41,582 bases of DNA from Ruminococcus sp. (GTDB lineage: Bacteria > Bacillota > Clostridia > Oscillospirales > Ruminococcaceae), in assembly GCA_017543595.1 (NCBI GenBank), contig JAFYFU010000003.1:1-41582 (forward strand). The letters run 5' to 3'. Numbering within the stretch: position 1 is the stretch's first letter; each line of letters begins with the position of its first letter. Below, piece after piece: positions 1,801 to 36,240 of this stretch. The notes beneath the pieces were generated by a model. It saw only the letters and a list, made by a program, of their open reading frames with translations. It had not been told where the DNA came from and did no database searches. The translations under genes were made by a program, and so were the position numbers.

Positions 1801-1899
1801 AAATCCTCCTATTTGAAGTCGTCAGATTTGCGCTTTTGAGGCTTGCGCTTTCGTTCACTTCACTGCGTTCCGTTCACTTTCAGCGCAAGGCGCAAATCT
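1801..1899 (-). repeat. Structured SD-bearing element, full unit (B type) before the S1 gene
   Basis: Read on the minus strand, the outer helix AGATTTGCGC/GCGCAAATCT (1890-1899 with 1824-1833) and the inner helix CTTGCGCT/AGCGCAAG (1882-1889 with 1842-1849) enclose a 32-nt loop (1850-1881). An unpaired CCTCAAAA lies on the 3' side (1834-1841). The tail GACGACTTCAAATAGGAGG leads directly to the S1 start codon and supplies its SD. The inner helix differs from the copy at 2733-2781 by a compensated change (T-A to C-G). Confidence 0.85.
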
Positions 1900-1944
1900 T
1901 CCTCCTATTTAAAATCGTCAATTTTGCCTTTTGTGGCTTGACAT
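1900..1944 (-). repeat. Structured element, 3' half only (A type), in tandem with the full unit
   Basis: On the minus strand, the 3' inner arm ATGTCAAG (1937-1944), the bulge CCACAAAA and the outer arm GGCAAAATT are followed by the tail TGACGATTTTAAATAGGAGG, which joins the full unit at 1899. The matching 5' arms and loop are missing; the sequence beyond 1944 is unrelated. The tandem order A then B is the same as at 2626-2819, so this looks like a decayed copy of that arrangement. Confidence 0.75.
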
Positions 1945-1995
1945 TTATTGATAGTCAATAATATTCATGAAGAATATAAAATATGATAATTATTT

Positions 1996-2340
1996 TTATG
2001 AGATATTCAGCGCACCCATTGAATTTAGTACAGCACTGACATTTGGAACGCTTGCGGATTCGCAGACAACATAGACGGAAGTTTTCCTGCTCCTCTGGGG
2101 TTCGGGGATAACGTCACGGGAAGCAGGCGATTCCATTACGGCAGTCATATAATTATGGGTAGTGACGGCAGTCGGAATAATCGTATAAAGAGTGCCGTGC
2201 TTTAATTTTTCGGCTTTGTCGGCAGAGCGGTTATAAATCATGCTTGTTGAGTACACACCCTTTATATTTTCTCTTATGCGTTTCATAGCGATTTCTGCGA
2301 GTTCGGGTTCTTCAAACTCTGCGCTTACTCTGGTAACCAT
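1996..2340 (-). CDS. Hypothetical 114-residue protein
   Basis: I do not recognise a family with confidence. The chosen start (MVTRVSAEF) follows AAGGAGAAATTTTT, a good SD with 8-nt spacing; an in-frame ATG 14 codons earlier has no SD. The N-terminal half (EFEEPELAEIAMKRIRENI) looks like an alpha/beta fold with an amphipathic helix, the middle contains a Ser/Arg-rich stretch (PEPQRSRKTS), and the C-terminus is VCESASVPNVSAVLNSMGA. There is no signal peptide or membrane segment, so it is probably cytoplasmic. The alternation of a short strand and EPELAEIAM-type helix recalls small ferredoxin-like or HMA-like folds, but this is only an impression. It lies upstream of the S1-domain gene on the same strand. 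Three copies of an AGGTAGAGTAT motif flank its leader. Confidence 0.65.
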   Translation of the reverse strand: MVTRVSAEFEEPELAEIAMKRIRENIKGVYSTSMIYNRSADKAEKLKHGTLYTIIPTAVTTHNYMTAVMESPASRDVIPEPQRSRKTSVYVVCESASVPNVSAVLNSMGALNIS

Positions 2341-2362
2341 AAAAATTTCTCCTTTTCGTTTT

Positions 2363-2470
2363 GGTAGAGTATAGGTGAGCATAAATCCATTTTTATACTT
2401 CTATATTTTTTTTTTCTTTTTTTTTATAAAGGTTATAAAATAGCGAATATACTCTACCTATCCTCTACCT
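2363..2470 (-). promoter_or_regulatory. Leader of the 114-residue gene with three GGTAGAG motifs and a T/A tract
   Basis: GGTAGAGTATA at 2363-2373 is matched by its reverse complement TATACTCTACC at 2448-2458, and a second, tandem copy (ATCCTCTACCT) lies at 2460-2470. Between them is a long T-rich tract (2404-2425). The spacing suggests a regulator-binding arrangement around the promoter of the minus-strand gene, but I cannot place a convincing -35/-10 pair. The remaining stretch to 2561 is AT-rich and shows me nothing else. Confidence 0.35.
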
Positions 2471-2561
2471 GAAATTTTCTATAATTTGTAAGACTTGAAT
2501 ATGAATCCAATGATGTTTTTATTATTTTTACACAAACTCAAAAAAATATGCAGATAAAATA

Positions 2562-2590
2562 TTGATTTAATATTCTTTTTGGAGTATAAT
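2562..2590 (+). promoter_or_regulatory. Promoter of the DUF951-prfA-sua5-coaE run
   Basis: TTGATT (2562-2567), a 17-nt spacer and TATAAT (2585-2590). The transcript would start near 2597 and carry a leader of roughly 225 nt that contains both tandem structured elements. Confidence 0.75.
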
Positions 2591-2625
2591 AAAATGTGCG
2601 TTTCAGAATTAATCAGGAGTGAGGA

Positions 2626-2721
2626 AGATTTTGCCCTTGACATGGGAATGAACGGAGCGACAGCGGAGTGAATGAAATGTCAAGCCTTAAAAGGCAAAAT
2701 CTGACGATTTTAAATAAGAGG
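2626..2721 (+). repeat. Structured SD-bearing element, full unit (A type)
   Basis: The outer helix is AGATTTTGCC (2626-2635) with GGCAAAATCT (2693-2702). The inner helix is CTTGACAT (2636-2643) with ATGTCAAG (2677-2684). The loop of 33 nt (2644-2676) contains the mirror core GCGACAGCG, and the one-sided bulge CCTTAAAA is at 2685-2692. The tail GACGATTTTAAATAAGAGG at 2703-2721 runs directly into the next unit. An SD-like AGGAGTGAGG also lies just before the 5' arm. Confidence 0.9.
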
Positions 2722-2722
2722 A

Positions 2723-2819
2723 AGATTTGCGCCTTGTGCTGAAAGTGAACGTAGCGACAGCGTAGTGAACGAAAGCACAAGCCTCAAAAGCGCAAATCTG
2801 ACGATTTTAAATAAGGAGA
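2723..2819 (+). repeat. Structured SD-bearing element, full unit (B type) before DUF951
   Basis: The outer helix is AGATTTGCGC (2723-2732) with GCGCAAATCT (2790-2799). The inner helix is CTTGTGCT (2733-2740) with AGCACAAG (2774-2781). The loop of 33 nt (2741-2773) holds GTGAACG twice and GCGACAGCG. The bulge CCTCAAAA is at 2782-2789, and the tail GACGATTTTAAATAAGGAG ends in the SD used by the gene at 2824. Compared with the A unit, about six helix positions differ and all are compensated, while loop, bulge and tail are nearly constant. Confidence 0.9.
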
Positions 2820-2823
2820 AAAT

Positions 2824-3024
2824 ATGGACGTAAGACAGGGAGATGTACTTGTTATGAAAAAGCCCCACCCCTGCGGTGCAAATGAAATGCTTGTACTGCG
2901 TTCGGGCATGGATTTCAGGCTCAGATGCGTTAAATGCTCCCGTGAGTTTATGATTCCCAGAAACAAGGCAGAAAAAAATATTAAAAAGATTAAGCGTGAA
3001 AGCGAAGGAGATAACAATGTTTGA
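2824..3024 (+). CDS. DUF951 family small protein (YyzM-like)
   Basis: This 66-residue basic protein starts [18 protein letters not shown] and continues [13 protein letters not shown], the typical layout of the DUF951 family, which is widespread in Bacillota and has no established function. The cysteine in HPCG and the CVKC pair suggest a small metal-binding or nucleic-acid-binding fold. The start follows AAGGAG, supplied by the tail of the structured element. Its 3' end overlaps prfA by 8 nt: the SD for prfA (AAGGAG) lies inside this gene, and the TGA stop comes after the prfA ATG, so the two are translationally coupled. It is the first gene after the promoter at 2562. Confidence 0.88.
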
Positions 3025-4090
3025 AAAACTTGCCGAAATGGAAAGCAAGTATGAAGAAATAAACGAAAAGCTTTCCGACCCGTCTGTGGTAAGCGACAAC
3101 AAGCTTTATGCACAGCTTATGAAAGATTTCAAGAATATGACCCCCATAATCGAAAAATTCCGTGAATATAAAAAGGCTGAGGAAAGCTTTAAAGAAGCTA
3201 AGGAAATTCTTGATTCGGGAAGTGATGACAGGGATTTCAGGGAAATGGCTCAGGCTGAATTTGAGGAAAACAAACAGGCTATGGAAGATATAACGCAGGA
3301 ACTTAAAATTCTCCTGCTCCCGAAAGACCCCAATGACGATAAAAGCGTTATAATCGAAATAAGAGGCGGTGCAGGCGGTGAGGAAGCCTCTCTCTTTGCA
3401 AATTCCCTCTATCGTATGTATACCATGTATGCCGAATCAAAAGGCTGGAAACAGGAAGTCCTGAACGCAAATCCAACCGAACTCGGAGGATTCAAGGAAA
3501 TAAGCTTTTCAATCGAGGGCGAGGGCGCATATTCAAGGCTTAAATATGAAAGCGGTGTCCACCGTGTACAGAGAGTCCCTGAAACAGAATCCCAAGGGCG
3601 TATCCATACTTCTACCGTCACAGTCGCTGTCCTTGCCGAGGCTGATGAGGTCGAACTGAATATAAATCCCACGGATTTGAAAATAGATTATTTCCGTGCA
3701 AGCGGTGCGGGCGGTCAGCATATAAATAAAACCGAATCCGCCGTCAGAATTACTTATCTCCCCACAAATGTTGTCGTTGAATGTCAGGACGAAAGAAGTC
3801 AGCATAAAAATAAAGACAAGGCTATGAAAATTCTCCGTTCAAGAATATATGAGGCTATGCAGGAAGAACAATCCGCAAAAATCGCCTCCGAAAGAAAATT
3901 ACAGGTAGGTACGGGCGACCGCTCCGAAAGAATAAGAACTTATAATTTTCCGCAGGGCAGACTTACAGACCACAGAATCGGTCTTACCATTTACCGCCTT
4001 GAAGATATGCTCAACGGAAATTTAGATGAAGTTTTTGATGCCCTTGCAACCGCAGACACGGCTGCAAAACTCGCAGGTCAGGAAATTTAA
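3017..4090 (+). CDS. prfA: Peptide chain release factor 1
   Basis: RF1 recognises UAA and UAG in the ribosomal A site and triggers release of the finished peptide. The 357-residue protein has normal family length. The catalytic GGQ loop ([16 protein letters not shown]) is at about residues 232-234. The codon-reading PxT loop is in the [14 protein letters not shown] segment near 188-190, which marks RF1 rather than RF2 (SPF). I chose ATG at 3017 because AAGGAG lies 7 nt before it; an earlier in-frame ATG inside the DUF951 gene has no SD. Being an RF1, it is the factor expected to act at the premature TAG in the GH5 gene at 26886. The next gene starts 2 nt after the stop, which argues for one operon. 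Confidence 0.98.
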
Positions 4091-4092
4091 CT

Positions 4093-5106
4093 ATGAATAC
4101 AGTATTGCTTAAAAATAATGAAGAAGATTTAATAAAAGCCTCTGATATGATTCGTTCGGGGCAGATTGTCGGAATACCCACCGAAACAGTCTACGGACTC
4201 GGTGCGGACGCTTCAAACGAAAATGCCGTGAGGGGAATATTTTCCGCAAAAGGCAGACCCGCAGACAATCCGCTTATAGTTCACCTTGCGGATTTCTCCC
4301 ATGCATCTGAATATACATCTTATATCCCCGAAATTGCCGAAAAACTTGCGGAGAAATTCTGCCCAGGACCTCTTACCATGGTTCTCCCCAAAAACGAAAA
4401 AATCCCTATGGTGACATCAGGCGGACTTGACACAGTGGGAATAAGAGTACCTTCCCACCCCGTAATGCACCGCATAATAGAACTTTCAGGCTGTCCGATA
4501 GCTGCCCCGTCTGCGAATACTTCGGGATATCCAAGCCCCACTTCCGCAAGCCATGTCATGAACGACATGAACGGGAAAATTTCAGCAGTCGTTGACGGCG
4601 GTGATTCAAAATACGGCGTTGAGTCAACAGTTATTTCATTTGACAATGAAAATACCGCAAGAATACTCCGCCCAGGCTGTATAACAAGAGAAATGCTCCT
4701 TGAAGTCTGCGAAAATGTCATAATAGACAGGGCTATACTCAATGAAGTTTCCGCAGGGGAAAAAGTTTCTTCCCCCGGAATGAAATACAAGCATTATTCG
4801 CCGAAAGCCGATATAATAATGGCGGAGGCTTCCGCAGAAAAACTCGCCGAATATGTAAAACTTCATGACGGTGAAAACGTCTATTCCCTCGTCTATACGG
4901 GCGATGAGAAATATTTTCCGCACAGGTGTCTTTCATATGGGGCTGACAGCGTTCAGCAGGCGCATATGCTCTTTGCAAAGCTCAGGGAACTTGACGAATC
5001 GGGTGCGGAAAAAGTCTATGTCCGTGCGCCTTCCGCCGAGGGTGTCGGACTTGCAGTATATAACCGCCTTATAAGGGCAGCAGGATTTGAGGTAATAAAA
5101 TTATGA
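4093..5106 (+). CDS. Threonylcarbamoyl-AMP synthase, Sua5 type
   Basis: This enzyme makes L-threonylcarbamoyladenylate from Thr, bicarbonate and ATP, the first step of the universal t6A37 tRNA modification. The YrdC/TsaC domain fills roughly the first 200 residues (GIPTETVYGLGADA, KGRPADNPLIVH, CPGPLTMVL, IAAPSANTSG). A linker with SSPGMKYKHYSPKADI leads into the C-terminal Sua5 domain. At 337 residues this is the long Sua5 form rather than the short TsaC form. It begins 2 nt after the prfA stop and overlaps coaE by 4 nt (ATGA). Release factor 1 and t6A synthesis side by side make this a translation-quality cluster, as in several other Bacillota. Confidence 0.96.
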   Translation: MNTVLLKNNEEDLIKASDMIRSGQIVGIPTETVYGLGADASNENAVRGIFSAKGRPADNPLIVHLADFSHASEYTSYIPEIAEKLAEKFCPGPLTMVLPKNEKIPMVTSGGLDTVGIRVPSHPVMHRIIELSGCPIAAPSANTSGYPSPTSASHVMNDMNGKISAVVDGGDSKYGVESTVISFDNENTARILRPGCITREMLLEVCENVIIDRAILNEVSAGEKVSSPGMKYKHYSPKADIIMAEASAEKLAEYVKLHDGENVYSLVYTGDEKYFPHRCLSYGADSVQQAHMLFAKLRELDESGAEKVYVRAPSAEGVGLAVYNRLIRAAGFEVIKL

Positions 5107-30543: not shown

Positions 30544-31539
30544 ATGAGCTTTTTAGTAAATAACGGTCTATTTGTAATGTATCACGAACAAGGAGGAGAA
30601 ACAGAATTTGTTATCCCCACGGGCGTATCAAAAATAGGTGCAGAGGCTTTCCGAAACTGTAACAACCTTGAATCCGTAACTGTCCCCAAAGGCGTGACGG
30701 AAGTGGGCGACAGAGCCTTTTATTACTGTTCAAACCTTACATCAATTAAAATTCCATATACAGTTGAGAAAATAGGTGCAGAGGCTTTCTGCGGCTGCAA
30801 AAAGCTTAAATCAGTGGATATTTCGGATAATACCAATGAAATAGGCGACAGGGCTTTTTATTACTGTTCGGGTCTTACGTCAGTCAAAATTCCGCAGAAT
30901 GTCGGAACGATAGGCTTTGAGACCTTTTATTACTGCACAAGCCTTAAAACAGTGACAATTGCACAGAATGTCACAAAAATAGACAGTGAGGCGTTTTACC
31001 GCTGCGAAAGCCTTGAAGAAATAGTTATTCCCGACAGTGTTACGGAAATAGGCGACAGGGCTTTTTATTACTGCACAAACCTGAAAACCGTGACAATAGG
31101 AGAAAACGTCAAGAAAATGGGGTCATGGGTTTTCCGCAACTGCACAAACCTTGAAACGATAATTTACAAGGGCATTAAATTGTCATGGGAAAAAATTTCG
31201 CTTACCAAAATTCAGGTTGAAGACGTTTTCAAAATTATAGACAGAGAGGATTTTTCCTCAAAAATTCCTGCCTCCATGAAATATGACATTGTGCGTCAGC
31301 TTTTTATGCGTGGCGGTACAAGCGACAAGTTCAATAACTATTTCAGAAAAAATTTTATCAAAATATTTAAGATGATAATTGACATGAAAGATATTGAGTT
31401 TGCCGAGAAAATTTCCAATGACACGAAATATCTGACGGCAAAGAATATAGACAGTCTTATATCATATGCCCACGAAAAAAGGGGCTTTGAGATTTCCGTT
31501 ATTTTAATGGACTACAAAGACACGATATTAAAAATCTAA
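30544..31539 (+). CDS. Leucine-rich-repeat (LRR_5 / BspA-like) protein without signal peptide
   Basis: The 331-residue protein holds about eight BspA-type repeats of 23 residues (IGDRAFYYCSGLTSVKIPQN pattern, residues 20-205), which build a curved right-handed solenoid for protein binding. The last 120 residues are helical and charged (SMKYDIVRQLFMRGG, FRKNFIKIFKMIIDMKD), similar to ankyrin-like or helical caps, with no family I recognise. Most BspA-type proteins are secreted; this one has no signal peptide or anchor (MSFLVNNGLFVMYHEQGG), so it is probably cytoplasmic. AAAGGGGGA is the SD. It is monocistronic with its own promoter and a shared terminator. The repeat DNA is nearly identical between several units, which points to recent internal duplication or gene conversion. 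Confidence 0.85.
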   Translation: MSFLVNNGLFVMYHEQGGETEFVIPTGVSKIGAEAFRNCNNLESVTVPKGVTEVGDRAFYYCSNLTSIKIPYTVEKIGAEAFCGCKKLKSVDISDNTNEIGDRAFYYCSGLTSVKIPQNVGTIGFETFYYCTSLKTVTIAQNVTKIDSEAFYRCESLEEIVIPDSVTEIGDRAFYYCTNLKTVTIGENVKKMGSWVFRNCTNLETIIYKGIKLSWEKISLTKIQVEDVFKIIDREDFSSKIPASMKYDIVRQLFMRGGTSDKFNNYFRKNFIKIFKMIIDMKDIEFAEKISNDTKYLTAKNIDSLISYAHEKRGFEISVILMDYKDTILKI

Positions 31540-36207: not shown

Positions 36208-36240
36208 TTAAAGTGCAAAATCTGACGATTTTAAATAGGA
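36208..36240 (+). repeat. Structured element, 3' tail only, before moxR
   Basis: TTAAAGTGCAAAATCT is followed by GACGATTTTAAATAGGAG, identical to the A-type tail at 2696-2716 and to the minus-strand copy at 1900-1918. The 5' arms and loop are gone. The SD AGGAG at its end is 7 nt before the moxR start codon. Confidence 0.75.

Follow-up and report, generated by a model that had tools for sequence, protein, structure and literature searches.

A lineage-restricted, structure-conserved and apparently mobile hairpin element adjoins ribosome-binding sites in Ruminococcus

The window analyzed here, a 41,582-nucleotide stretch of a Ruminococcus sp. draft genome, carries full and truncated copies of a short hairpin element. 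On the minus strand, a full copy (1808-1903) lies directly upstream of the Shine-Dalgarno sequence (SD; 1804-1809) and ATG (1800) of an S1-domain gene (883-1800), and a 5'-truncated copy (1904-1946; model positions 53-96) lies head-to-tail upstream of it. On the plus strand, two full copies form a tandem pair, the upstream partner at 2622-2718 and the downstream partner, copy 3, at 2719-2815; they are followed by a DUF951 gene (2824-3024) and then by prfA (3020-4090). The tail of copy 3, GACGATTTTAAATA (2800-2813), merges into the SD AGGAG (2814-2818), and the ATG follows at 2824. The sequence TTGATT-17-TATAAT (2562-2590, plus strand) resembles a promoter; it also occurs in two other genomes that carry the element, and a similar form occurs in six printed congeners that do not. 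Because both plus-strand copies lie between this promoter-like sequence and the SD, they probably belong to the 5' leader. A further 5'-truncated plus-strand copy (36208-36239), consisting of the tail and part of the right arm, stands directly before an SD and ATG, and no element was found at the orthologous leader of the genome RGIG4914.

The two truncated copies were absent from an earlier note on this DNA, which had described the three full ones. Its helices and 8-nt one-sided bulge were borne out, with ends agreeing within a few bases, and so was its tail GACGATTTTAAATA, with the exception of one copy that reads GACGACTTCAAATA instead. Its guess that the element belongs to no known RNA class agrees with a search of the whole window against Rfam 15, in which no family reached its gathering cut-off; the single subthreshold match between 1750 and 2850 (18 bits versus a cut-off of 40) fell at 1751-1781, outside the elements. 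Elsewhere in the window, a plus-strand ORF (50-829) appears by eye to join a dockerin-like stretch to the C-terminal part of a phosphofructokinase. Its Pfam PFK match is limited to model positions 107 to 277, and the fusion probably arose by misassembly, close to where the contig begins. Direct repeats of 69 nt at 30631-31160 lie in what seems, again by eye, to be a BspA-like leucine-rich-repeat gene.

The element is ∼94 to 97 nt long and consists of AGGA, an outer helix, an inner helix, a GA-rich rod, the one-sided bulge, and GACGATTTTAAATA. Folded as RNA, copy 3 reaches −33.6 kcal/mol (z = −4.28), a stability matched by 0 of 200 shuffles; folded as DNA, it has a z score of −3.63. In an alignment of 61 full copies from the window's own genome, with 24 pairs named by the analyst (1464 cells), 95.6% of pair cells were paired, compared with 79.3% in shuffled alignments and 17 to 40% in slid-partner controls. 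Both sides had changed in 242 cells (shuffled, 74.2 ± 9.4; reached by 0 of 500), and such changes were present in 17 of the 24 pairs; the number of further pair types, 38, showed no excess over shuffles, 132 of 500 of which reached it. A second set, 97 copies aligned by fitting to the model and drawn from 32 fetched stretches that make up part of RGIG4914, was 95.9% paired, with both-side changes in 20 of 24 pairs and 425 doubly changed cells versus 128.5 ± 8.1 after shuffling. The helices covary, then, in a second species as well as in the first, and the loss of pairing in further copies that the earlier note had named as counterevidence did not appear. What had been described as a constant 32-nt loop was not upheld: the region is itself paired, and its pairs covary. 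It forms a rod, GU-GA-AC-GNA-GC-NNN-GC-GNA-GU-GA-AC, in which 2-bp steps (GU/AC, AC/GU, and GC/GC) are set apart by GA/GA and GNA/GNA internal loops, mismatch runs that would presumably suit sheared G-A pairs. Columns 30 and 55, which pair with each other in the rod, hold GC in 34 and AU in 27 of the 61 copies, and rod helices 3 and 4 are paired at 99.6% and 99.2% in the first set and at 95.8% and 99.0% in the second.

Copies are abundant in three genomes. With 150 candidates scored in each, the covariance model matched at least 149 in the window's own genome (G000), at least 150 in RGIG4914 (G085), a metagenome-assembled genome from roe deer rumen, and 118 in UBA4383 (G069), of which 105 had E values below 0.001 and 13 lay above. 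BLAST gave at least 73 matches in the own genome among the 40 of 149 candidates scored. The model search thus revealed the further copies whose absence would have spoken against a family. These three genomes, all drafts (73 to 93% complete; own genome, 93%), were the only carriers among 125 genomes of the genus, own genome included, in a search with strict filters that scored no more than 33 candidates in each genome. Within the genus, the window's PrfA is most similar to the PrfA proteins of the two other carriers (94% for UBA4383 and 92% for RGIG4914; next, 90%). Counts of a 15-nt tail pattern were 107, 45, and 63 in the three carriers and 0 in seven other congeners, and its reverse was found 0 times in all ten. 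An exact 20-mer recovered 26 stretches from genome contigs of 84,980 species, 21 of them from Ruminococcus, with both RGIG4914 and UBA4383 among the carriers of the exact pattern. The other five, from Bacteroidota, were judged to be chance: four matched in the tail only (E values of 0.15 to 0.41) and the fifth gave no match. Copy 3 had no match among named phages (50,697 records) or plasmids (72,556), and, going by titles or the starts of abstracts, no description of the element was found in the open-licence PMC literature.

We examined where the element lies relative to genes in 217 arrays from the own genome and RGIG4914, with fragments and the G-rich type described below counted in and ORFs called mechanically. 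An ORF starts within 90 nt downstream in 186 of them, with a sharp peak at 8 to 10 nt. Setting aside 15 arrays with less than 150 nt downstream or with a last match lacking its 3' end left 202, of which 155 have a start codon 5 to 16 nt past the element (90 of 109 in the own genome and 65 of 93 in RGIG4914), compared with 99 of 2394 random intergenic controls (4.1%). In 6 more the ATG is fused to the element end, and 41 lack an adjacent start codon under the rule used. In UBA4383, a start lies 7 to 14 nt downstream in 12 of 15 printed arrays. Accordingly, 161 of the 202 arrays are sense to the gene that starts right after, and the random orientation that had been put forward as counterevidence was not seen. 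A location so nearly constant, just ahead of the ribosome-binding site, is unusual. The special association with the S1 and prfA operons suggested previously was not found; those genes account for two of the 217 arrays and the downstream genes are mixed, so the element is not an S1 or prfA regulator, and an association with S1, or with ribosome genes in general, was rejected on the same ground.

Such a position could mean that the copies are a cis-regulatory family of leader RNAs selected for the host gene, with single or tandem hairpins tuning translation or mRNA stability. Helix covariation and the sense-strand place before start codons both fit this explanation, as does an excess of G-T over A-C in the distinct stem arms (27 versus 11 in the outer and inner helices, beside 56 other mismatches) in a combined set of 204 of 297 full copies, chosen because their anchors were found and no fewer than 7 of the 10 outer pairs were present, a choice that biases the paired fraction; the excess hints only weakly at sense-strand selection. 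Against it, the predicted accessibility of the SD is independent of the hairpin: across 111 leaders, SD openness was the same with an intact as with a shuffled hairpin (0.446 versus 0.452). The tail in the same predictions was unpaired at 0.671 with the intact and 0.519 with the shuffled hairpin. The absence of any match in 122 of the 125 genus genomes, among the candidates scored, also argues against a regulatory family.

Besides the element described so far (A-type), we observed a sister G-rich type that shares the inner rod and a ATTTTAAATA end and has outer arms GGGGGGCTTGGGGGGA...TCCCCCC. Examples lie at C91:63170-63264, C101:7114-7202, and C68:43885-44066 of the own genome and near position 18381 of contig C183 of UBA4383. 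The G-rich type also occurs before genes and hosts nested copies. Right-arm remnants of the A-type, starting at model positions 54 to 57, directly follow G-rich copies at C101:7205, C3:6150, C64:35374, C68:34901, C68:73247, and C32:4545 of the own genome, as if G-rich copies had inserted into A-type copies whose left part was then lost.

Comparison of orthologous leaders shows turnover. At the DUF951-prfA leader, the three carrier species share a similar promoter-like sequence yet hold different elements: two A-type copies in the own genome, truncated A-type pieces and a G-rich type in UBA4383, and two others in RGIG4914. The same leader is short and element free in the six printed noncarrier congeners. 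An orthologous leader was available for 66 of the 186 gene-adjacent arrays; 44 were occupied, which corresponds to 22 genes counted from both sides, and 22 were element free, although in at least one of these, pair 117, the start seems to be misplaced. Another pair is near precise, with the empty leader reading AATTTAAAATA|AGGAGG and the filled one TTAATAAATAAG[three copies]GAGG. The 22 genes occupied in both the own genome and RGIG4914, out of 102 and 84, exceed the 5 to 6 or so expected from 102 × 84 over a pool assumed to hold 1400 to 1800 eligible genes, a smaller pool weakening the excess; shared genes were taken from the fetched stretches around elements only. This overlap would favor a regulatory role, and it could reflect a function that was kept, common ancestry, or a limited number of suitable leaders. 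Judged by eye, however, the shared genes look unrelated (e.g., ftsY-, purM-, argH-, and rpiB-like), and the copies differ between the species at most of them: in 16 of the 21 shared genes scored, the copies were no more alike than random pairs, and in 5 they were more alike (0.05 level).

Viral contigs carry the element too. The element or its tail was found in nine IMG/VR contigs, two of which are identical over 7122 bases. At one viral leader, L250 is empty, L249 and L252 hold ∼20 nt of tail, L253 holds the tail and a full copy, and L251 holds at least two copies; L249 is identical to part of L252, and the contigs of this series are 88.8 to 97.5% identical in longer aligned pieces. The protein encoded after this leader had no PHROG match, and our guess by eye is a capsid-region gene. 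A truncated copy occupies a second viral leader, before the terminase small subunit. In another contig, L254, four element matches were observed at 3296-5053: a tandem of two A-type copies and two matches whose outer arms differ. They seem to precede different genes. One exact rod pattern and one tail variant each returned 0 matches in the viral contigs. Copies that precede viral genes are a further argument against regulation of host genes, and we regard a regulatory leader family as unlikely.

The arrangement of copies relative to one another bears on how they spread. In the fetched stretches, neighbors within 200 nt lie on the same strand in 152 cases and on opposite strands in 0. Seven A-type copies begin directly past model position 36-39, the hairpin tip, of another element, with the junction YATG|AGG in six of the seven; the right half of the host follows in five and is missing in two. 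One G-rich copy likewise lies within the tip of another element. The host tips at nested copies are short of a few bases, so that insertion was not clean. An old repeat family with no present transposition, in which homologous recombination, unequal exchange, and gene conversion would now be the sole sources of change, could explain why neighbors within arrays of the own genome resemble each other (median identity of 0.926 [n = 41] versus 0.771 for random pairs within the genome), and the failure to find a mobilizer in the Y1 and RVT_1 searches described below is also consistent with it. For tandem neighbors in RGIG4914, in contrast, the median is 0.783 (n = 52), near that of random pairs there (0.755), and the nested copies in different hosts, the near-precise empty and filled leaders, and the presence in viral contigs also speak against such a family. 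We consider this explanation very improbable.

Most fragments are 3' pieces, with 36 missing the 5' part and 11 the 3' part. This bias, together with insertion in the sense of the next gene, is what a bacterial SINE-like retroelement might leave, its RNA copies being reverse transcribed into SD regions. Of the 38 matches that begin at position 15 or later, however, 28 begin at 54 to 76, in the right arm, an uneven spread that later loss of the hairpin, with the tail and SD kept, fits as well. Right halves of hosts with nested copies account for some of the 36, and selection would favor deletions that keep the SD in any case. Among the 11 fragments lacking a 3' part, five are left halves of elements that host a nested A-type copy, a sixth hosts a G-rich one, three are cut off where a contig ends, and two have an internal deletion. 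The reverse transcriptase model RVT_1 (PF00078) had 0 matches in the three carrier drafts, and a retroelement seems to us very improbable.

The turnover at orthologous leaders, the nested insertions, and the viral copies instead support a mobile element. The earlier note had offered a choice between a selected RNA and a hairpin-processed DNA element; selection on the hairpin is evident from the covariation, and the mobile alternative is supported. The left flanks of first copies tend to TTAA(A/T)YA(R)G ahead of the element's AGGA. A YA step occupies positions −4 and −3 in 91 of 131 first copies and is lacking in 40, so that it is a preference and not a rule; it persists in 65 of the 98 first copies whose flank has no tail-like remnant, and it precedes 21 of 173 native SDs under a looser SD definition. 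Among 92 arrays used for junction analysis, left and right junction dinucleotides were not correlated in the 75 that entered the test (p = 0.29), and no target duplication was detected. The right end of the element, TTTTAAATA, resembles the left flank, a likeness that would explain the head-to-tail arrays.

A search for the Y1 transposase (PF01797) gave 0 matches in the own genome and in UBA4383, drafts in which absence is not final, and in RGIG4914 only a 53-position fragment (model positions 69 to 121). With the own genome and the genus searched and no intact gene in the three carriers, a Y1/RAYT mobilizer was rejected. The lack of a mobilizer in the Y1 and RVT_1 searches counts against mobility, as do the 5 of 21 shared genes whose copies are more alike than random pairs. 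The unchanged SD openness, the between-species gene overlap, the arrays that lack an adjacent start codon, the first copies that lack YA, and the bases lost at nested tips weigh on the same side. On balance, we think it likely that the element is a nonautonomous mobile hairpin that inserts before SDs by the following route. The element would insert in one orientation, favoring a YA step directly 5' of an SD; other intergenic sites and the hairpin tips of existing copies would be used less frequently. Once inserted, the element would be transcribed within the 5' leader, where the hairpin would fold on itself and the A/U-rich tail would stay more open beside the retained SD, so that the gene tolerates the element. 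The right end would recreate the target (TTTTAAATA before the SD), and later copies could dock beside earlier ones, giving same-strand arrays. Mobilization in trans by a single-strand (HUH-type) nuclease would fit, because of the left-flank site, the lack of detected duplication, the subterminal hairpin, and the target-repeating right end. We claim mobility with fair confidence and infer the chemistry only; tolerance through the tail, as the folding predictions suggest, and a mainly selfish character are likewise proposed.

The kind of element is known, that of small REP-like repeats, and the variant is new. REPs and REPINs are high-copy extragenic imperfect palindromes, some bulged, without coding capacity (PMC8266576, PMC3116915); their clusters grow when a copy inserts into, or beside, one already present, and their proposed movement is in trans, through single strands (PMC8266576, PMC3116915). 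REPs have a length of 20 to 50 nt, a tetranucleotide in front (mostly GTAG, or CGTC), and a frequent arrangement in inverted pairs (PMC8266576, PMC3733652). The Ruminococcus element resembles the REP/REPIN system with its TnpA_REP (RAYT) in being a high-copy, extragenic imperfect palindrome with a bulge that clusters and lacks coding capacity. Unlike REPs, it is ∼96 nt long, starts with AGGA, ends in GACGATTTTAAATA, and has no conserved GTAG or CGTC tetranucleotide in the 61-copy alignment; unlike REPINs and BIMEs, it forms no inverted pairs (152 same-strand and 0 opposite-strand neighbors). It also departs from REP/RAYT in adjoining SDs and in the lack of an intact Y1/RAYT transposase in the three drafts. 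Some of the single-strand features of IS200/IS605 are described in PMC8266576. The subterminal hairpin, the left-flank preference, the right end resembling the left-flank site, and the lack of detected target duplication suggest a likeness to that family. What sets the element apart from IS200/IS605 is that one hairpin is the whole of it and that no intact Y1 transposase occurs in the three carriers. Classical MITEs, which depend on a DDE transposase and have terminal inverted repeats and target-site duplications, differ as well, since the arms of the element are flanked by the 5' AGGA and the 3' 14-nt tail and its junctions are uncorrelated, and group II-type retroelements differ in that PF00078 was found in 0 of 3 carrier drafts. 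BOX, RUP, Correia/nemis, and ERIC repeats are short, hairpin forming, and intergenic, and they are reported to alter the expression of neighbors in some cases; many have terminal inverted repeats or varied intergenic places. The arms of the present element, in contrast, are subterminal, and the start codon follows it at an almost constant distance. BOX and RUP are covered in PMC3049150.

Small bacterial repeats are generally expected where harm is least. This element sits instead at a sensitive spot, before the SD, in 161 of 202 arrays of two genomes, and yet it is tolerated. A tentative idea, which we hold to be possible but somewhat doubtful, is that the ribosome-binding site is itself the target: a trans-acting single-strand nuclease might read AAYA with the SD after it, or the single-stranded DNA or RNA state of translated leaders, and leave a self-folding hairpin there. 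Under the same idea, and no more firmly, the element would rebuild the pre-SD sequence, so that genes survive and the site can be used again, in viruses included. Targeting, if that is what the position reflects, would point to an integration chemistry able to recognize ribosome-binding sites. Should selection be the cause instead, the genomes offer a natural set of leaders in which similar hairpins, from one to several per leader, stand at almost the same distance from the start codon. The viral copies provide a series in which gain and loss may be watched.
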